Shown here piece after piece: positions 5,818 to 23,755 of a stretch of DNA of 34,159 bases (positions within the stretch are counted from its first letter, which is position 1; the number at the start of each line of letters is the position of its first letter). The DNA comes from Deltaproteobacteria bacterium. GTDB taxonomy: Bacteria; Desulfobacterota; Binatia; Binatales; Binataceae. Both the position numbers and the translations under genes were made by a program. Under the pieces are notes generated by a model. The model was given only the letters and a program-made list of their open reading frames with translations, was not told the origin of the DNA and ran no database searches. The stretch spans positions 1-34,159 of the forward strand of contig JAJYYI010000149.1 of the NCBI GenBank assembly GCA_021801125.1, read 5' to 3'.

Positions 5818-5844
5818 GACCGGCCATCTATTGGTTCGGCCGTC
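5818..5844. terminator. Hairpin between convergent thiE and SH3 genes
   Basis: GACCGGCC and GGCCGTC form a stem of seven pairs with one bulged C and a 12-base loop, filling the 25-bp gap between two converging genes. There is no T-run on either side. A shared bidirectional terminator is plausible from position, but the sequence is not a classic intrinsic terminator. Confidence 0.35.
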
Positions 5845-6559
5845 AGTTCACGAATAGGTCGGTTTTCGGAACGCTTGCCGCTCCGCCTTCCAAGACAGAG
5901 TATGGAATGAATCCCTCAAGCCCGCTGCGCATGCGAATCTGCACGTAGCCTGGCGCCACGCCCACGACCTGAACATGATGGCCTTTGTTGACCTCGGCGA
6001 GCTGCTTGCCCCACTTGTTGGGGCGTTCGCGCACCGGGGAATCGTCGGCCAACGTCAGGATTTTGTCCACTGGCTGAACCAGCTTTACCACCTCCGGATC
6101 GACGTAGGCGGTCCTACCTTCTCTGAGCTCGACGCGCAAGTAATAGGGCGTGAGGGCGGTCACATGGACGTATCGGCCGGCGTGAATGCGCTTGATTCGC
6201 CGGCTGCGTTGGTTCGGCCGCTCGTACGCCCATGAGTTGCGCGTCACCTCCAATCGTACGTCGATCGGTTCGGTGGGGATTTTTTCGGCCGCGCGAACTT
6301 TACGGCGTCGAGTGCGACTCGTCTTAGGCTTGGCCGGCTGGGCCGCGGCCGGGTGCGACACCGGCGGTGCGGCTTCGGCGCCTGGGGCGGGGGCCGCCGT
6401 CTCACTCGCGCCTGGAACGGACGGCGCGGAGGTCGTGCCGCTCGGCGTCTCGTCCTCGATCACCGCCATGGGAGCCTTGTCCGGCGGACCGGCAGCGATA
6501 CTCCCCACAGGAGCGAGGAGCCACGATACTAGAGCGGCAGCAGAAACTAATTGGCGCAT
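5843..6559 (-). CDS. Secreted protein with two bacterial SH3 domains
   Basis: The 238-residue product starts with a Sec signal (hydrophobic residues 4-22, likely cleavage near SIAAG). A low-complexity Ala/Pro/Glu linker and a basic patch KTSRTRRRKVRA (about 78-90) follow. Two SH3b-like repeats come next, about 98-160 (YERPNQRSRRIKRIHAGRYVHV) and 165-230 (VRERPNKWGKQLAEVNKGHHVQV). Both show the usual pattern of short beta strands with Arg-Pro near the start. Such domains generally bind peptidoglycan or proteins in the periplasm, and no catalytic domain is present. The gene is separated from the radical SAM gene by 167 bp and has its own likely promoter. Its cellular role is unknown. The domain call comes from pattern recognition. 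Confidence 0.72.
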   Translation of the reverse strand: MRQLVSAAALVSWLLAPVGSIAAGPPDKAPMAVIEDETPSGTTSAPSVPGASETAAPAPGAEAAPPVSHPAAAQPAKPKTSRTRRRKVRAAEKIPTEPIDVRLEVTRNSWAYERPNQRSRRIKRIHAGRYVHVTALTPYYLRVELREGRTAYVDPEVVKLVQPVDKILTLADDSPVRERPNKWGKQLAEVNKGHHVQVVGVAPGYVQIRMRSGLEGFIPYSVLEGGAASVPKTDLFVN

Positions 6560-6726: not shown

Positions 6727-8499
6727 TCAGCAAGCGCCGCACACCGTGCAGCGTAGGACGTTACAGGGTTTGGTCTGATGCTCGTAATGAGCTTTCTTCC
6801 GCTCCGAGAAAAGAAACCACTTGTGAACTTGATGGTCAATGAAATCCCAGGGCAAGGTTTCTTCGTAGCTGTAGCGCCGTCGCACGTAAAAGTCAGGGTC
6901 GGGCAGCTTTCGCGAGCCGTCGTTCGAAGCCTCATACTTGATCGCCCGCAGCTCCTGCCATATTTCCCCAGCCTCGTCACAGCGCCTCTCGTTTAGGCGC
7001 TCGAGAATTGCGCCGACTCTCCGATCTCCCCTCGACAGCAAAGTCTGAAAGTAAGCCTCGCGCGGTGATTCAGCGTCCAGCTCAACCCGCTTCACGGGCG
7101 TCAGCTCGCTTCTCAACTGCGCGATCTTGCGCTTGAGAACGCGGCTGTCTTCCATCGCGTCCCACTGGAACGGCGTCCAGGGCTTGGGCACGAAGGGATT
7201 GAGCGAGACGGTAACGCGTCCTACTCTGCTCGCCCCGTTATTTACGCAGTCGCAGATTTTGGCGGTCAGGCGGGCGATCTCCGACACGTCTTCATCGCGC
7301 TCCTCAGGCAAGCCAACCATAAAGTATAACTTTAGGTTTTCAACGCCATTGGCGGTGAGCATCTGCGCCGCGCGCAAGATCTCGGCCTCGCTTAAGTTTT
7401 TGTTGATAACCTTGCGCATCCGTTCGCTTCCGGCTTCCGGCGCCACGGTCACGCTGCGCGTTCCGCTGCGGGCCAGCGCTTGTGCAAGCTCGCTGGAAAT
7501 GCAGTCCGCCTTGAGCGAAGATGGTGAGAGTCGCGCGCCAGCGTCCGCCACGGCGCCGGCGATCTTCGCCACCGCCGGAACGCTCGCCATTTCGGCGCCG
7601 ACCAACCCAATGACGGAGCGTTCGGTCAGTCCCTGCTTGGCCTGCGCGAGCAATTTATCGGGACTGCGGTATCGAATCGGACGATACATGAAGCCCGCCG
7701 CGCAAAACCTGCAGCCCCATTGGCAGCCGCGGCTCGCCTCGACCAGGTACATGTCGCCGAATACGGATTCCTCGGTCAGGATAAGCGAGCTGGTCGTGAA
7801 GCGATCCAAATCCCGGACCAGCCTGCGCTTAACCTGAGGCGAGCCCTCGCCCTTGTATTGAACCGCGCGCAACAAGCCACTCTGGTCGTATATCGGCGTA
7901 TAATCCTCTGGAACATAGGCACCTTCGACCCGGGCCAGTTCGCGCAAGCGCGCGTGAGGGCCAAGATGGCGGTCACGGGCGTCGAGGTAGCGGTCCAGAA
8001 ATTCCGGAACCATTTCCTCGCCTTCGCCGACGAGGAAAAGGTCGATGAAATCGGCGACCGGTTCCGGATTAAGAAAAATCGCCGAGCCGCCGGCGACGAT
8101 GAGCGGATAGCCGGCATTCGCGCGCTGTTCACGCCTGGTGGGAATTCCCGCCAGTTCCAGCATCGCCAAGACATTCAGGTAATCGGTTTCGAAGGCTATC
8201 GAGAAAGCTACGATATCAAAGTCGGCCAAGGGACGGCCTCGCTCGAGCGACAGCAGCCGTTCCCGCCCGGCGCGGATGGACGGTCTTTCGTCAGGGTCAG
8301 GCAAAAAGGCGCGGTCGACCGCGACCCGCGACGAATCGCCGAAGATCTTGTGGATCGCCTGGAACCCCAGATTTGCCATCCCGAGCCGATAGACGTTCGG
8401 GTAGACGAGACACGCCTGTACTTCGCCGCCCTGGCGCCGCGGGTAAAGTGTTCGCTCTCGAGAAAGGCGCTCAAGCGCGCGCTTGCGTAAAGACAACAT
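6727..8499 (-). CDS. B12-binding-type radical SAM protein, TIGR03960-like
   Basis: The 590-residue protein has an N-terminal cobalamin-type Rossmann region (VQACLVYPNVYRLGMANLG at about 27-45). The radical SAM cluster follows: ASRGCQWGCRFCAAG with Cys259, Cys263 and Cys266 (CX3CX2C), the ligands of the SAM-binding 4Fe-4S. A C-terminal Cys group CNVLRCTVCGAC (CX4CX2CX2C) could hold a second cluster. This arrangement matches the TIGR03960 family, whose substrate I do not know. Those proteins are often fused or adjacent to a DUF2344/TIGR03936 domain, which is absent here. The ATG overlaps the stop of the upstream DUF151 gene by one base (TGATG), so the two are probably translated together in an operon with rlmE. 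Confidence 0.85.
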   Translation of the reverse strand: MLSLRKRALERLSRERTLYPRRQGGEVQACLVYPNVYRLGMANLGFQAIHKIFGDSSRVAVDRAFLPDPDERPSIRAGRERLLSLERGRPLADFDIVAFSIAFETDYLNVLAMLELAGIPTRREQRANAGYPLIVAGGSAIFLNPEPVADFIDLFLVGEGEEMVPEFLDRYLDARDRHLGPHARLRELARVEGAYVPEDYTPIYDQSGLLRAVQYKGEGSPQVKRRLVRDLDRFTTSSLILTEESVFGDMYLVEASRGCQWGCRFCAAGFMYRPIRYRSPDKLLAQAKQGLTERSVIGLVGAEMASVPAVAKIAGAVADAGARLSPSSLKADCISSELAQALARSGTRSVTVAPEAGSERMRKVINKNLSEAEILRAAQMLTANGVENLKLYFMVGLPEERDEDVSEIARLTAKICDCVNNGASRVGRVTVSLNPFVPKPWTPFQWDAMEDSRVLKRKIAQLRSELTPVKRVELDAESPREAYFQTLLSRGDRRVGAILERLNERRCDEAGEIWQELRAIKYEASNDGSRKLPDPDFYVRRRYSYEETLPWDFIDHQVHKWFLFSERKKAHYEHQTKPCNVLRCTVCGAC

Positions 8500-9185
8500 C
8501 AGGGTTGAAACTGAGCGTGGGCCTCGGGGAACATCAACGCGCTGCCGGAGCTTGTCCGCCGCGCGTTGGCGCCGTCTGCCGCGTCGTTGAAAAAAACCGC
8601 GGAGAACGCGCCGTCCGACGGGCCGCGTGTTTGTGGCAAGACCACGTTTGGGCTGCTGGGATGTTCGGGCGGCTCCTTCAAGAACAGTCGCGGAAGCACG
8701 AAAATGGGCACCTTGCAGGCGAGCGCGAGGGCGATCGCGTCGCTGGGTCGACTGTCAATGCGATAGCGCGCCTGATCCAGGTAGATAGTCGCGTAAAAGG
8801 TCTGATTGCGCAGATCGTTGATCACGACCCGGTCGACTCGGTTGCCGGTGGTAACGAGAACGGTCTTGAGCAGGTCACTGGTTAACGGGCGCAGCGGCTC
8901 GATGCCGTGAAGCTTTAGCAAGATGGCCTGCGCTTCCGATTCGCCGATCCAAATTGGGAGCATCCGCGTACCCGCCTTCTCTCGCAGGATAACCACTGGA
9001 GTCCCGGCCGCCTGGTCGAAGCCTAGGTGTAAGACTTCGACCTCCACGCCTGTTTCAGGATCGGCGCCGGTGCCTCCTCCATGGCAGCCGAGCGCAAGCG
9101 CCGCTACCGCGGTGGCCAACAGCAAACCGGAAGCAAAGGGAAACATTCTTATACGGTGGAGCGGATCACGTTCGAGCTTTGCCAT
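8499..9185 (-). CDS. Lipoprotein with bifunctional nuclease (BFN/DUF151) domain
   Basis: The 228-residue product begins with basic residues and a hydrophobic run (about 15-33) ending AALALGC. Cys34 fits a lipoprotein signal peptidase II site, so the mature protein is probably lipid-anchored outside the cytoplasm. The rest (about 45-175) is a typical DUF151 domain: VILREKAGTRMLPIWIGESEAQAI, then ATIYLD, RIDSRPSDAIALAL and VPIFV. Some members of that family are reported to have DNase/RNase activity. Most are predicted to be cytoplasmic, so the lipobox is odd. A GTG three bases upstream (9188) is an alternative start, and GGAG precedes both. It is 21 bp from rlmE and overlaps the radical SAM gene by one base. 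The domain call is strong. Export is an inference from the signal. Confidence 0.83.
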   Translation of the reverse strand: MAKLERDPLHRIRMFPFASGLLLATAVAALALGCHGGGTGADPETGVEVEVLHLGFDQAAGTPVVILREKAGTRMLPIWIGESEAQAILLKLHGIEPLRPLTSDLLKTVLVTTGNRVDRVVINDLRNQTFYATIYLDQARYRIDSRPSDAIALALACKVPIFVLPRLFLKEPPEHPSSPNVVLPQTRGPSDGAFSAVFFNDAADGANARRTSSGSALMFPEAHAQFQP

Positions 9186-9209
9186 CACACTGCGCTCCTA
9201 TCTCCCGGT

Positions 9210-9833
9210 TTATTTAGCACATCTGTCGCACAGTCCGTCAGCGGAAAAAAAGCCGCTTGCGACCACGTACATTTCCGACGACCCGCGCCGCGTGGCCTGC
9301 GGACGCACGAGGTTCACGGTCGAAAAAACCGTCTTAAGGCGCCCCACGACCGGCTTGAGGTCGGCGTTCATGAAAACTTTGACTACAAAGGCCCCGCCTG
9401 GCTTGAGAATCTCGTTTGCGCTTGTGAGCGCGAGTTCCAAAAGCTCGGTCATGGCTTGTTGGTCACGGTCGCGAACGCCGCTGAGTCGCGGCGCCATGTC
9501 GCAAGTGACAAGGCCGGCCCGCGCCCCGAGCACCTCGTAAGCCGCCGAGCGTATGTTTTCCTCCTTTAGGTCCCCGGTCAGCGTGGTGACCCATGGCGCC
9601 GGAGCGCGACATGGAGCCCGGTCAACTCCAACCACTCGTCCTTTTGGCCCCACTGCCTTTGCAAGAACGGCAAGCCATCCTCCCGGAGCGCATCCGAGAT
9701 CCAAGACTCGCGCACCGCGCCGGACCAGACGATGGCGCGCGAGCAACTCCTCTAACTTGAAAGCGGCTCGCGATGCCAGGCCTCTTTCGAGCGCCATTCG
9801 GTAAAATCGATCGTGTGGTTGATAATGGGGCAT
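9210..9833 (-). CDS. rlmE: 23S rRNA 2'-O-methyltransferase RlmE (RrmJ/FtsJ)
   Basis: The roughly 207-residue protein has all parts of the FtsJ family. These are the catalytic Lys in SRAAFKLEE, the SAM motif VLDLGCAPGGWLAVLA, Asp in VTCDMAPRLSG, Lys in FVVKVF and Glu in SSEMYVVASGF, making the K-D-K-E tetrad. RlmE methylates the 2'-hydroxyl of a uridine in helix 92 of 23S rRNA, a late 50S maturation step. The ATG at 9833 (MPHYQPHDRFYR) is chosen, and a GTG at 9842 would add three residues. It appears to be the first gene of the rlmE-DUF151-radical SAM operon and is divergent from the helicase. Family identity is clear. Confidence 0.93.
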   Translation of the reverse strand: MPHYQPHDRFYRMALERGLASRAAFKLEELLARHRLVRRGARVLDLGCAPGGWLAVLAKAVGPKGRVVGVDRAPCRAPAPWVTTLTGDLKEENIRSAAYEVLGARAGLVTCDMAPRLSGVRDRDQQAMTELLELALTSANEILKPGGAFVVKVFMNADLKPVVGRLKTVFSTVNLVRPQATRRGSSEMYVVASGFFSADGLCDRCAK

Positions 9834-9954
9834 TTTAAACACGAGCGCGGCGTCGCAAATCAGCTTCGCGCTTTGCCGGCCGTGCTGAAAGGGCTAAGGT
9901 TAAGGTCTTATTCCAAATAGGCCACTTCAATTTCCAAGTCTCAATTATACCCGA

Positions 9955-17247: not shown

Positions 17248-18987
17248 TTATGCGGGACGCGAAACGATCGCCACCGAGTCGGGCGGTAGCTCGATCTCAC
17301 CGTTGCCCGGCGCGATCGAGCGATCGGAGGCGAGCAGAAGCGTTGGCTGATCCGTGTAGCCCAGCGCGACGCGAGCGGGTCGCGAACCCAGGTTGATGGT
17401 AACCGTTATCGACCCGCGCGTAACGCGCAGCCATTTCGCGTCTTCGTCGAAGGCAGCCTCAATCCGATCCATACGTCCGTCAGTCAATTCCGAAGCGCAA
17501 CGGCGTAGCCGAATGAGGTCTTTCCACCACGCCAAAAGCTCGGCGTGCCAACCGCTATGAGCTTCTTTCCAATCGAGCTGAGAGCGCAAAAAGGTGTCCT
17601 CGGCTTGCGGGTCGGGGACTTCTTCGGCTTGCCAGCCGAAAGTCTCGAACTCGCGGCACCGGCCTTCACGTACGGCCGCGGCGAGCGTCGGTTCGCTGTG
17701 GTCGGTGAAAAATAGGAACGGCGATGACGCGCCCCATTCCTCTCCCTGAAAGATCAACGGGATGAACGGTCCTGTCATGACCAGCGCGGCGGCGGCCTTG
17801 AGCCTTCCCGGGGTCAGCAATGCGCTGGCGCGGTCGCCCTGCGCGCGATTACCCACCTGGTCATGGTTCTGGAAGAAACCGACGAAACGATGTCCCGACA
17901 GGCCGGTTGCGGGACGGCCGTGAAAGCGTCCGCGATGCTCGGAGTAGCAGCCGTCGTAAACGAAAGCGCCCTTGAGGGCCTTGGCGATGTGCGCGAGCAG
18001 GCCGAAGTCCTGGTAGTAGCCCTCGCGCTCGCCGGTGAACGCGGCGTGGAGCGCGTGATGGAAATCGTCGCTCCATTGCGCGTTTATGCCGTAACCGCCG
18101 TTTTCGCGCGGCCGCACAACTCTAGGATCGTTCAGATCGCTCTCGGCGATCAGCGCCAGGTGACGCCCGAGCTTTGCGCTCAACACCTCGACTTCGGACG
18201 CGAGTTGCTCGAGGAAGTGCGTTGCTGAAATGTCAAAAATCGCGTGCACCGCGTCGAGTCTCAGGCCGTCGATGTGGTAGTCGCGAAGCCACATCAGCGC
18301 GTTGTCGATAAAGAAGCGGCGAACTTGCTCGCTCCCTGGTCCGTCAAAGTTAATCGCCTCTCCCCAGGTGATGGAGTGGCTTCGGCTAAAGTACGGACCG
18401 AAGCGACCCAGGTAATTGCCGTCGGGGCCAAGATGGTTGTAAACCACGTCAAGCAAAACCGCCAACCCGCGAGCGTGACACGCGTCGACCAGCCGTTTGA
18501 GCCCGTCCGGCCCGCCGTAGGCGTGATGCGGCGCGTACAGATCGACTCCGTCGTAACCCCATCCGCGCTGCCCGGGAAACTCCACTACCGGCATCAACTC
18601 CGCGTGGGTTACGCCGAGTTCCGTCAGATGGTCAAGCCGCGCGATTGCTGAGTCGAAGGTGCCCTCGGGCGTGAAGGTGCCGACATGAAGCTCGTAAATA
18701 ACCGCGGAGCTTAGAGGCGGCGGCTGCCATCGCCGATCGCTCCATCGGAAAGCCGCGTGATCCACCAGCCGAGAGCGGCCGTGCACGCCCAACGGCTGAT
18801 AAGGCGAGCGAGGATCCGGCAGCGGCCCTTGGCCGTCCAGGAAGAACGCGTAGTCGTCGCCTGCTTTGGCTGTCGGTGCGTCGACCCGCCAGTAGCCGCG
18901 GGCGCCGGCCACCATCGGGATACGCGTGCCGGACAATTCCAGATCGACCGTTTTTGCGTTGGGTGCCCAAAGCAGAAATTGACTCAC
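17248..18987 (-). CDS. treZ: Malto-oligosyltrehalose trehalohydrolase
   Basis: The 579-residue GH13 enzyme has an N-terminal carbohydrate-binding-like domain (LLWAPNAKTVDLEL). The barrel follows, with LDVVYNHLGPDGNY, the nucleophile Asp in GLRLDAVHAIFD, acid/base Glu in LIAESDLNDPR and the third Asp in FFQNHDQVGNRAQGDR. A C-terminal beta domain ends in VAIVSRPA. TreZ releases trehalose from the end of maltooligosyl trehalose made by TreY. The start is GTG at 18987, three bases after the treY stop. Its GGAG ribosome binding site lies inside the last treY codons. It is the last gene of the glgX-treY-treZ operon. Confidence 0.95.
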   Translation of the reverse strand: MSQFLLWAPNAKTVDLELSGTRIPMVAGARGYWRVDAPTAKAGDDYAFFLDGQGPLPDPRSPYQPLGVHGRSRLVDHAAFRWSDRRWQPPPLSSAVIYELHVGTFTPEGTFDSAIARLDHLTELGVTHAELMPVVEFPGQRGWGYDGVDLYAPHHAYGGPDGLKRLVDACHARGLAVLLDVVYNHLGPDGNYLGRFGPYFSRSHSITWGEAINFDGPGSEQVRRFFIDNALMWLRDYHIDGLRLDAVHAIFDISATHFLEQLASEVEVLSAKLGRHLALIAESDLNDPRVVRPRENGGYGINAQWSDDFHHALHAAFTGEREGYYQDFGLLAHIAKALKGAFVYDGCYSEHRGRFHGRPATGLSGHRFVGFFQNHDQVGNRAQGDRASALLTPGRLKAAAALVMTGPFIPLIFQGEEWGASSPFLFFTDHSEPTLAAAVREGRCREFETFGWQAEEVPDPQAEDTFLRSQLDWKEAHSGWHAELLAWWKDLIRLRRCASELTDGRMDRIEAAFDEDAKWLRVTRGSITVTINLGSRPARVALGYTDQPTLLLASDRSIAPGNGEIELPPDSVAIVSRPA

Positions 18988-18990
18988 GGC

Positions 18991-21642
18991 TTAATTCTCC
19001 ATTGCCATGAGCAGGCACACGGGAAAGCGGTCGAAGAGCCGGGCGACGGGAATTGCCGGGCCTTCGAGCTGTTCTCCGGTCAACTCGTTTCGCCAATGAC
19101 TGCGCGGCAGAGTCAACGCGGTGTCATCCCAGAGCCCGCCGGTTCTGAGGCCCAAGCGCGGGACCGCGGCGACCAGTGCCTCGCCGCGCGAGAAAGCTAT
19201 CACGTTATCCGCGCACCTGCCTTCGGCATAAAGCGGCCGGTAACTGCTCGCCACACCGAAAAGCTCCGGATGACGGCGCCGCAGCGACAATGTCCGCTGA
19301 ATCAGCCATAGCTTGCAAAGTCCCTCCTCGCTGCGCTCTACGGCTTGATCTACCGTCATCAGCTTAAGCTCCCCTAGGAACCTGCGTCGAGCGTCAAAAT
19401 CCACCGGCCGGCGATTGTCCGGGTCGACTAAAGAAAGATCCCATAACTCCGAACCCTGATAAAAATCGGGAACGCCGGGAGCGGTAAGCTTAAGCAAAGT
19501 TTGCGCGAGCGAGTTAACTCTGCCCGCGTCGATGATCTCACGCACGAAAGACTCGAGGTCATCGACAAATTCGCGGTCGTCGAGCGCACCGCAAATAAAG
19601 TCTTTCAGGCCGGCTTCGTAAGCGACGGACGGGTGATGCCACGATGTATAGACGCTCGCCTCGCGCACCGCCTTCTCCATGTAGGCTAGCACTCGGTCAA
19701 GCGCGATTGGCCAGGCTCCCGCTAGCGTCTGGTAGAGCAGGTATTCCGCGTTGCGGTCTGGCTTTGCGGGCCAGTGCCGCTGATTGATTGAAGCCCAACG
19801 CCAGACCGCGTCTTGCCACCGCTCGGGAAGCTCCGACAGAACGTAAAGCCGCGCGCGAACGTCCTCGCTCCGTTTAGTGTCGTGAGTGGATGTAGTGAGG
19901 AGGGCGAAGGGCTGGCACTCCTGTCTTTCGGCCATCGAGCGGTGAAAGTCTTGCGGGCTTGTGGCAAAGCGGCCTGGGTCGCCGCCGACTTCATTGAGCG
20001 CGACGAAACGGTTGTAGCAGTAAAAAGCCGTGTCCTCCACGCTTTTTGCCATCACCGCCGGCGTGAATTGCTGAAAGCGCATAGCCAGTTCCGTCTCGCG
20101 CTGGCCGCGGATCTCGAGCGTCAGGATGCGCTGGAAAAAGTCGAAGGTCTCTCCGTCGAGGTCCGACCGCGCGCTTTTGGCGGCGCCGACAGCTTGTTCG
20201 ATATAATGGATGTCTCGCGATGGCGCGCGCTCGTCCTGCGCGCGCGCGTAGGTGCGATAAACGGGAAAATGCGCGCTCACGGCGCGCAGCGTCTCGTGCA
20301 GCTCATGGCGGGTGTAGTCGCGGTGGCGACGTCGATGCTCGCACACGTCGAGAAACAGCGCCGTGAGCCGGTTGAGGTCACTTCCCAAAAGTTCGTGTAG
20401 TACTTTAAGTTTGCTGTCGAGCACGATGGCATCGTAGGAGAGTGGCTCGCCGGTAAAGTCGTGATAGAGCTTGGTGAGCGCCGCCTCGCTCGCCGGATCG
20501 ATGAAGAGCCCGCCGACAAGGGTAAGAAAGTCGTAGCCCGTGGTTCCGGCAACCGGCCACGACGCGGGCATACGCTCGTCGCCTTCAAGGATTTTCTCGA
20601 CGACGACCCACGCATGTGGCGCTTGAGCTTTTAGGCGACCGAGGTATTGTTCGGGGTCACGCAAGCCGTCGATGTGGTCGACTCTCACGCCGTCGATGAT
20701 CTTTTCCTTGAGCCAGCGAAGGGGCAGCGCATGGAGATCGTCAAAAACCTTCATGTCCTCGGTTTTCAGCGCGACGAGTGAATTTACCGCGAAAAAGCGC
20801 CGATAACTGAGGTCGCGCTGCGCGGCGCGATAAAACGCAAGGCGATAGTTTTGACTTTCGAGGAGCGCGTCGAGCTTGTCGGGATTCGCGTTGATCTCGT
20901 CAACGACTGCGTTGATCGCCGCGATTACGCGAGGACGTTCGGCGAGCAAGCGCGCGAGCATCTCGCGCAATATTCTGACGCTGCGCCGCTGTCGCTGGGT
21001 CTCCTGAGCGTCGCCGCTGAGCGCCGCCGGTTGCGACTTGAGCGCTTCGGCAATGAACAACAGTTCGTCGGATTCGCAGCGCTCGGCTGCCACGACAAGA
21101 AGGCCGTGAAGCGTATGCGGAGCAAGCGGGAAGGACTGCGCTCCATAGACCACCCTGAACCAACCGTCCGTGCGCTCGAGCTTGAGATCCCCGCTTTCCA
21201 GCACGCACCCGTAGTGGCCGCCAAGCACCGGCATCAGAACCCGATTGCGCAGCTTGGGTTCGGGTGGATTCCATTCCACGTCGAAGTAGCCGGCGTACGG
21301 GCTGTGCCGTCCGTTTTCCAGGAGGTCCCACCACCAGGGATTCTCCGGTCCGGCGATCGCCATGTGGTTGGGCACTATGTCGAGCAGTTGTTTAAGTCCG
21401 CACTTGTCGAGCGCCGCACAAAGGGTCGAATAGCCTTGCGCGCCGCCAAGCTCCTGGCTCACGTGGTGGGGATTGACGACGTCGTAGCCGTGAGTACTGC
21501 CGGATGCGGCCTGCAGAATGGGCGAGAGGTAGACGTGACTTACGCCCAGCTCTGCCAGATAGGGCACCAGCGCCGCCGCCTCGTCGAAACCGAAGCCGGA
21601 CCGGAGTTGGATCCGATATGTCGCGCGCGGTTCAATCGACAC
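18991..21642 (-). CDS. treY: Malto-oligosyltrehalose synthase
   Basis: The 883-residue GH13 protein begins [20 protein letters not shown]. It shows TreY motifs: [27 protein letters not shown], nucleophile Asp in [13 protein letters not shown], Glu in [13 protein letters not shown], the substrate strand [10 protein letters not shown] and His-Asp in [15 protein letters not shown]. TreY turns the reducing-end alpha-1,4 bond of malto-oligosaccharides into an alpha,alpha-1,1 bond. The length is within the family's upper range. The GTG start at 21642 overlaps the end of glgX by 11 bases in another frame, consistent with coupled translation. Confidence 0.95.
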
Positions 21643-23755
21643 GGCGCATCACAACGACGGAGCGCGCGGCAACCTTGAGAGATTCGCCTGCTCTGCAGGT
21701 TTGCCCGGCAATCCAGCCCGTCGCGGTATTGGTATCCAGGATAAGCGACCAGCTTTTACCCCAGTCGCGCGCGGGCAAAGTGAACAACAGCGCCTCATGG
21801 TGGGCGTTGAAGAGCAGCAGGAAGCTGTGGTCTATGACTCGGTTGCCCATGGGGTCGGGACTAGGAATCCCTTCACCGTTGAGGTAAACGCCTAGTGACT
21901 TGGCGAAGCCGTTGTTCCAGTCTTCGTCGGACATTTCTTGCCCGTCGGGCTTGAACCATCCGATATCGCTGACGCCGACTCCGCGAAGCGGACGGCCCTG
22001 AAACCAGCGCCTGCGGCGGAAGACCGGATGCTCGCGGCGAAACGCGATCAGCCGGCGTGTGAACTCCAGCAGCTCGCGATCGACCTGTTTCCAATTGAGC
22101 CAGGATATCTCGTTGTCCTGGCAGTAAGCGTTGTTGTTGCCGTTTTGGGTTCGACCCAATTCGTCCCCGGCGAGCAACATGGGTATACCTTGCGACAGGA
22201 ACAGGGTGGCGAGCAAGTTGCGTTGCTGGCGCGACCGCAGCGCGTTAATCTCCGGATCATCGGAGGGTCCCTCCGCGCCGCAATTCCACGATCGGTTGTC
22301 GTTGGTCCCGTCCTGATTGCCGTCGCCGTTAGCGTCGTTGTGCTTGTCGTTGTACGAGACCAGATCGCGCAGAGTAAAGCCGTCGTGAGCGGTGATAAAG
22401 TTGATGCTCGCGATGGGCGAACGGCGCCCCGGTTTGTACAGGTCGGAGCTGCCGGTCAGGCGAGTGGCGAATTCGGCGAGCTTCTGATCAACTCCGCGCC
22501 AATAATCGCGCACCGTGTCGCGGTACTTTCCGTTCCACTCGGACCATTGCCTGGGGAAGTTGCCGACTTGATATCCTCCTTCGCCCAGGTCCCACGGCTC
22601 GGCTATCAACTTGACCTGCGAAAGTACCGGATCCTGGTGGACGATATCCAAAAAGGCGCCGAGTCGGTCGACCTCGTGCATCTCGCGAGCCAGCGCGGAG
22701 GCAAGATCGAACCGGAAGCCATCCACGTGCATCTCCAACACCCAGTAACGCAGGCTGTCCATGATTAGCTGGAGCGTATTGGGGTTGGTCATGTTCAAGG
22801 TGTTGCCGCATCCCGTGTAGTCCATGTAATAGCGCGGCTTGTCGGCGACCAGGCGGTAGTAAGCAGCGTTATCAACTCCCCGGAAGCACAGCGTCGGTCC
22901 CAGTTGGTTGCCCTCGCCGGTATGGTTGTAGACGACGTCGAGTATGACCTCCAAGCCGCCGGCGTGCAGCGCCTTGACCATCGCCTTGAACTCGCGCACC
23001 TGTTCGCCGAGACCTCCGCTGCTGGAGTAACGGACGTCCGGTGCGAAATAGCCGATAGAGTTGTAGCCCCAATAATTAGTCAGACCACGCTGCACGAGAT
23101 GACGGTCGGCAACAAACTGATGAACCGGCATCAGCTCCACCGCGGTCACGCCGAGCGACCGCAGATAGTCAATCACCGTCGGACAAGAGAGACCGGCGTA
23201 GGTGCCGCGCAGTTCTTCCGGCACTTCCGGATGCCGCTTGGTGAAGCCCTTGACGTGCAATTCATAGATTATCGTTTCGTGCCACGGAATGTTTAGCAGG
23301 CGATCTCCCTCCCAATCGAAGGACGGGTCGATAACGACGCTCTTCGGCATCGCCCGCGCGCTATCGCGGTCGTCCCTGCTGAGATCCGCTCGGTGATGGC
23401 CTACGCGATAACCGAACAGAGTGTCATCCCATAGGATAGGCCGATCGATAGCCTTTGCGTAAGGATCGAGCAGGAGTTTGCTCCGATTGAACCGGAGTCC
23501 CTTGGCGGGTTCGTAAGGGCCGTGCACGCGAAAGCCGTAGCGCTGCCCCGGTCCGATTCCAGGCACGTATATATGCCACACAAGGTCGGTAACCTCGGTC
23601 ATCGGATTGTTGGCGATCTGATGGTTCTCATCCGGCCCGTCGAACAGACACAATTCCACCCCGGTTGCGTTTTCGGAGGCGAGGGCGAAATTCACCCCCT
23701 CACCGTCCCAAACTGCCCCGAGCGGGTAGGGAGCACCAGGGCGCGGATTCGTCAC
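21632..23755 (-). CDS. glgX: Glycogen debranching enzyme GlgX/TreX
   Basis: This 707-residue isoamylase-type GH13 enzyme has an N-terminal domain [18 protein letters not shown]. The barrel motifs are [12 protein letters not shown], nucleophile Asp in [10 protein letters not shown], Glu in [19 protein letters not shown] and Asp in [41 protein letters not shown] is the typical signature of the GlgX/TreX group. It removes alpha-1,6 branches from glycogen, giving linear chains for TreY. The start is GTG at 23755 with a weak ribosome binding site. It is the first gene of the operon. No glycogen synthase or branching enzyme is in the window. Confidence 0.95.

Follow-up and report, generated by a model that had tools for sequence, protein, structure and literature searches.

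A DUF151 gene with a lipoprotein-type signal

The window, which here means the whole analysed stretch of 34,159 nt, encodes on its minus strand an exported-type BFN (DUF151) protein of 228 residues (8499..9185), which reads from an ATG at 9185 to a TGA stop codon at 8501-8499. A candidate Shine-Dalgarno-like GGAG (9195..9198, minus strand) lies 9 nt before the ATG, and a GTG immediately 5' of the ATG would, if used as the start, add one residue. The first 34 residues, MAKLERDPLHRIR (9084..9185, minus strand), form a lipoprotein-type signal with Lys and Arg near the start, a hydrophobic run and then ALGC, ending in Cys34 (codon 9086-9084). Judged by eye and by a PROSITE-like lipobox pattern, to which Cys34 conforms, the protein has the charged start, the hydrophobic run and the lipobox Cys of a lipoprotein, and the description of this N-terminus in the earlier note is thus borne out. 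In E. coli, an Asp after the lipoprotein Cys leads to retention in the inner membrane; the residue that follows Cys34 is His, not Asp. Lgt, LspA and LolA are all encoded in the window genome, as is a second BFN protein, the product of a gene on another contig (L001, 177 residues), which has no signal. The window protein is very probably exported as a lipoprotein and lipid-anchored in the envelope, and the place outside the cytoplasm that the earlier note had given it is supported as likely.

The gene sits between two others on the same strand. Upstream lies a gene for an FtsJ/RlmE-like methyltransferase (9210..9842, minus strand; PF01728, E 4.6e-46), which stops at 9210, leaving 24 nt to the BFN ATG, and which scores 165 bits vs 300 with TIGR00438 (the rrmJ equivalog), the only strong match of three in the genome. 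Downstream, a B12-type radical SAM gene (6727..8499, minus strand; TIGR03960, 415.8 bits vs 462.3) begins with an ATG whose A is shared with the BFN stop codon TGA. A promoter scan found none, and the two terminator-like sites are no more than the shuffled mean of 2.1.

The tandem layout with the radical SAM and rlmE genes was confirmed, but its two sides differ in conservation. Below, family refers to the taxonomic family of the source genome (35 genomes) and classmates to 22 genomes of the same class outside it. Across 18 family loci, namely the window and 17 stretches longer than 10 kb, the FtsJ/RlmE-like gene is next upstream of the exported BFN gene on the same strand in all 18, with a divergent uvrD beyond it; neither gene was found in the five stretches (5/5) from outside the family. 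Among the same 18 loci, the radical SAM gene directly follows the BFN gene in just three (the window, L071 and L073), with the overlap of stop and start present in the window only (gaps of about 234 nt in L071 and about 435 nt in L073), and in L077 it lies about 3 kb from the BFN gene. Because of this difference (18/18 vs three loci), we regard linkage to rlmE as a trait of the family and linkage to the radical SAM gene as local, and neither tells the function of the protein; with direct adjacency in just 3/18 family loci, a partnership with the radical SAM protein was rejected as a clue of general value. At the loci read, no gene for a protease was noticed next to the exported BFN gene.

Several other frames were seen in these regions. 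After the radical SAM gene of the window, as in L071, L073 and L077, comes a gene for an SH3_3 protein with a signal-like start (5843-6559). Behind the PDZ-bearing BFN copies of L077, L080, L081 and L088, a convergent ORF of 569-592 residues on the opposite strand has the common stretch EKLEFLYGLPARQKRDLIL, which reads QKLEFLYGLPARQKRDLIL in L088. Further along the window, at 17248-23755, three long minus-strand ORFs nearly touch or overlap end to start and look by eye like trehalose/glycogen enzymes.

Conservation of the signal in the family

A BFN match was found in 56 of the 57 genomes searched, the source genome included, and among the 35 genomes of the family an exported BFN copy could be read in 31. 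Only BFN of the cytosolic type was obtained from the remaining four (G003, G008, G021 and G022), the G022 copy being cut by a contig end. The earlier note had named orthologs without the Cys and the hydrophobic segment as the sign of a wrong start. We looked for such orthologs, and all 31 exported family copies have both features just before the BFN domain; 28 of them fit the strict lipobox pattern and 31 a looser one, and neither form of the pattern occurs in any of the 27 cytosolic BFN copies fetched. For the exported copies, we set the start codons by eye, which biases the counts towards a signal, but the position of the Cys before the domain is independent of that choice.

Compared with the congener copy L004, the BFN domain of the window protein has a dN of 0.059 and a dS of 1.05, which shows that the domain is under purifying selection; against L005, synonymous change is saturated. 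The 34 codons of the signal region changed faster in the comparison with L004 (dN 0.54 vs 0.06 for the domain), with a dS of 1.75. Such a rate, as well as an in-frame GTG close to the start of the BFN domain, would suit a cytosolic BFN protein whose start had been mis-called and whose N-terminal stretch is untranslated. That reading is hardly tenable, given that an open frame with the hydrophobic run and the Cys is kept in 31/31 family copies, a finding on which a wrong start codon was rejected, that GGAG precedes the ATG, and that a cytosolic BFN is encoded separately in the window genome.

The BFN fold and a changed histidine

At an E-value threshold of 0.001, the sole Pfam family found in the window protein is BFN_dom (PF02577), which covers residues 65-167 (8685..8993, minus strand) with an E-value of 9.5e-37 and 125.7 bits vs a cut-off of 27, so that the domain is complete, as had been claimed. 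NCBIfam models gave no match to the protein at the same threshold. The AlphaFold model is confident over approximately residues 47-170 and matches the fold of TM0160 from Thermotoga maritima (1VJL, 1SJ5; Foldseek E 4.2e-14), to which the sequence is also related (phmmer E 2.5e-23). The two proteins have the same fold and share the RP and SRPSD motifs, and they differ in that the window protein has a signal and Cys in front and a Ser at the position of His58. The cytosolic paralog L001 shares the BFN domain and keeps RPMTHDL, with neither a signal nor a PDZ domain.

The available text of PMC7249048 relates that the structure of TM0160 suggested a putative triad of Asp115 and His58 from one subunit and Thr57 from the other. 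With TM0160 residue numbers mapped by our own reckoning, using an offset of 12 tag residues, the alignment to the PDB sequence places Ser103 of RPLTSDL (residues 99-105; 8871..8891, minus strand) at His58 and Asp149 of SRPSD (residues 145-149; 8739..8753, minus strand) at Asp115. The putative triad in the window protein therefore keeps Thr102 and Asp149 and has Ser103 in place of the His. Since the triad is itself only a proposal, this change leaves the protein inside the fold family.

The tree set comprises 93 BFN rows, 53 cytosolic and 40 exported. The position is His in 53/53 cytosolic vs 19/40 exported rows; cytosolic L061, one of the 27 fetched, was missed by the motif but reads RPQTHDL, with the His present. 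Exported family copies keep the His in 13 of 31 cases and lack it in 18; L123 and L154, from the named collection, have Tyr. At least six changes at this position are needed on the BFN tree. By comparison, Asp149 is kept in all 93 rows (40/40 exported, 53/53 cytosolic), and Arg99, Pro100, Ala132, Asp144, Arg146, Asp149 and Pro160 are invariant in the 40 exported rows. Because the exported copies of classmates (8/8) and of the phylum (12/12, by eye) keep the His, its change is mainly a trait of the family of the source genome. A general association of export with loss of the His found no support, as most of the exported copies from outside the family retain it; the independent-pairs test had too few pairs (one on starred branches, four on all).

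The pattern of residues suggests that, in the family, the BFN domain is kept for something that is often done without that His, and that the window protein is probably not a His-dependent nuclease. The earlier note had spoken of a bifunctional nuclease domain: the BFN domain is present, and the nuclease role, for which the evidence comes from plant proteins, is weakened here.

Other arrangements of BFN genes were observed among the sequences collected. Two adjacent BFN genes stand in tandem in L128 of Poribacteria and in seven Nitrospira-type loci (L106, L108, L134, L145, L148, L153 and L164), where the second BFN reads RPMSHD or RPLSHD, with Ser for the Thr of the triad. In genome G020, L067 and L068 are extra BFN frames of 219 and 98 residues that look partial.

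A PDZ domain in relatives of the window protein

A C-terminal PDZ domain was detected by an in-house profile in 28 of the 31 exported family copies (E 1.5e-19 or better), most of which were also used to make the profile. It is missing from the window protein, L004 and L005; the genomes of the three copies are that of the window, G001 and G015. In the window protein, the position of the PDZ domain is taken by a tail (residues 171-228; 8502..8675, minus strand) that is modelled with low confidence (pLDDT). Frames 3' of the window BFN gene contain no PDZ remnant, the best match being noise (E 0.66; control locus 1.8e-34).

The PDZ domain of the relatives is of a recognizable kind. Pfam models run on 10 exported proteins at an E-value of 0.001 found PDZ in nine, seven of them above the curated cut-off; the matches of L026 and L035 are below it, and L034 has no PDZ. 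The PDZ domain of L093 matches 29 PDB sequences at an E-value of 0.001, all of them named as HtrA/Deg family members, with DegQ the best (2.1e-14). The best 50 structures matching the L093 model (pLDDT 82.9, pTM 0.61) are headed by TM0160, followed mainly by DegQ, HtrA and relatives, with MamP included. The PDZ domain of L093 thus resembles PDZ1 of DegQ/DegP (HtrA); unlike those proteases, the BFN-PDZ orthologs have no protease domain, and the window protein has no PDZ.

A quick BFN tree (93 rows, 125 columns) places the window BFN inside a family group of 29 rows with BFN-PDZ copies (SH-aLRT 93). The three PDZ-less family copies cluster together (support 95) beside 26 PDZ-bearing rows (support 91), two of which are named MAG copies. 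Most likely, the older family form was signal-Cys-BFN-PDZ, and the PDZ domain was probably then lost in the lineage of the window. A gain of PDZ elsewhere instead is a less simple reading, because most outgroup copies also have the domain.

With the PDZ domain absent and the His changed, the exported copy could be seen as a remnant, undergoing decay in the lineage of the window since both losses, and the fast-evolving C-terminal tail fits with this (dN 0.69, dS 1.15 against L004 over 43 codons). We consider decay very unlikely, as the BFN domain is constrained as described above (dN 0.059 vs dS 1.05) and the frame, the signal and the Cys are retained in three genomes.

Spread of exported BFN proteins

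The earlier note had presented the protein as a lone departure from cytoplasmic and plastid members, and this view did not hold. Besides the 31 family genomes with an exported copy, 8 of the 22 classmates have a second BFN copy, and all eight of these look exported, L026 and L034 being lipoprotein-like and L035-L038, L042 and L043 having a plain signal (by eye). A single match spans BFN and PDZ in at least 13 of the 118 genomes of a phylum sample, which includes the source genome and three classmates, classmate G041 being one of the genomes with such a match. From the phylum, 14 loci were fetched, of which 12 look exported, L187 looks cytosolic and L181 has no frame; by eye, five of the 12 are lipoprotein-like, including L188, which is cut before any PDZ, and seven have a plain signal or an N-terminal anchor.

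The named collection adds at least seven exported-looking copies among the 80 loci listed. The nearest of the matches listed come from the 'Deltaproteobacteria' MAGs FK5.bin86 (L093) and BP7.bin41 (L094), both lipoprotein BFN-PDZ proteins, and the BFN domain of L093 is identical to that of G011. The acidobacterial MAG copy L095 has the same lipoprotein BFN-PDZ plan, and L114, L123, L154 and L170 look exported and have no PDZ. A single origin of export was unsupported, as the exported label needs four changes on the BFN tree.

Among the papers listed in the literature searched, mostly without subscription journals, there was no exported, lipoprotein or PDZ form of DUF151 or bifunctional nuclease, and where a bifunctional nuclease and a PDZ domain were mentioned together, these were two separate plant proteins. 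The BFN domain and the lipoprotein signal are known kinds; their combination and the BFN-PDZ plan are apparently undescribed, although the BFN-PDZ plan may be present in domain databases.

A binding module or a nuclease

Taken together, the best explanation overall is that the window protein is a lipid-anchored envelope protein in which BFN serves as a quality-control binding module and not as a nuclease, a reading to which we assign a probability of about 0.5. The protein would be exported by Sec, lipidated at Cys34 by Lgt and freed of its signal by LspA, and the mature form would sit in the envelope with the BFN domain facing the periplasm. There, BFN would act as a dimeric module that binds a ligand or client in envelope protein quality control. 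In the relatives, a PDZ domain of the DegQ/DegP kind may recruit a client or a partner protein; the shorter window protein would bind without it.

The quality-control reading draws on the relatives' PDZ, which is of an envelope-protease kind, and on a full DegP/HtrA protease encoded in the window genome (TIGR02037, 505 bits). It also draws on the plastid DUF151-UVR proteins UVR2, UVR3 and UVR4, which were enriched with trapped CLPC1; in the available text of PMC8889267, adaptors are among the roles that the authors consider for proteins of this type. In the accessible parts of PMC7249048 and PMC8889267, the plant BBD/UVR-DUF151 proteins likewise have the BFN domain fused to another module (UVR, HCR); they differ in being nuclear or plastid and in having UVR where the bacterial relatives have PDZ. 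NlpI-Prc, going by the listing of PMC5686067, pairs a lipoprotein adaptor with a PDZ protease, and the likeness is one of proposed role alone, in periplasmic proteolysis. As the window protein has no PDZ, the link to quality control rests on the relatives, and such an envelope role for the window protein itself is a tentative suggestion. The His kept in exported copies elsewhere (classmates, 8/8; phylum, 12/12), the failure to see a protease gene beside BFN, the status of the triad as a mere proposal drawn from a structure and the activity of plant BFN nucleases in vitro all speak against the best explanation.

The same observations bear on the main rival, a lipid-anchored nuclease in the periplasm or on the cell surface that would work with the conserved Asp and Arg and no His, in nutrient recovery or defence. 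The BFN fold, Asp149, Arg146 and Arg99 are all retained, the His is present in the majority of exported copies read from outside the family, and plant members show nuclease activity: according to the consulted text of PMC7249048, AtBBD1 and AtBBD2 act as DNases and RNases in vitro, and metal enhances the DNase/RNase activity of plant members. We find a nuclease rather unlikely, however, with Ser at the His58 position here, the His absent from 18/31 family copies and a fused HtrA-type PDZ that is no obvious partner for a nuclease. Our preference stays with the lipid-anchored binding module. An extension to the whole of DUF151, as primarily a quality-control module that binds proteins and is coupled to different protease systems in each compartment, is unlikely on present grounds; if true, it would link DUF151 via UVR to ClpC in plastids and, in bacteria, to proteolysis in the envelope via the HtrA-type PDZ.

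Significance

The exact molecular function of DUF151 is given as unknown in the available text of a 2020 paper (PMC7249048). The domain is widespread, and the exported subfamily has switched compartment and often has a protease-type PDZ. It amounts to a natural experiment in which Arg99, Pro100, Asp144, Arg146 and Asp149 are kept while the supposed catalytic His drifts in the family, and it makes the question of nuclease versus binding module directly testable. If the quality-control reading is true, exported BFN lipoproteins would form a class of quality-control factors of the envelope that has so far gone unrecognised, and of which the lineage of the window would have a stripped-down form.
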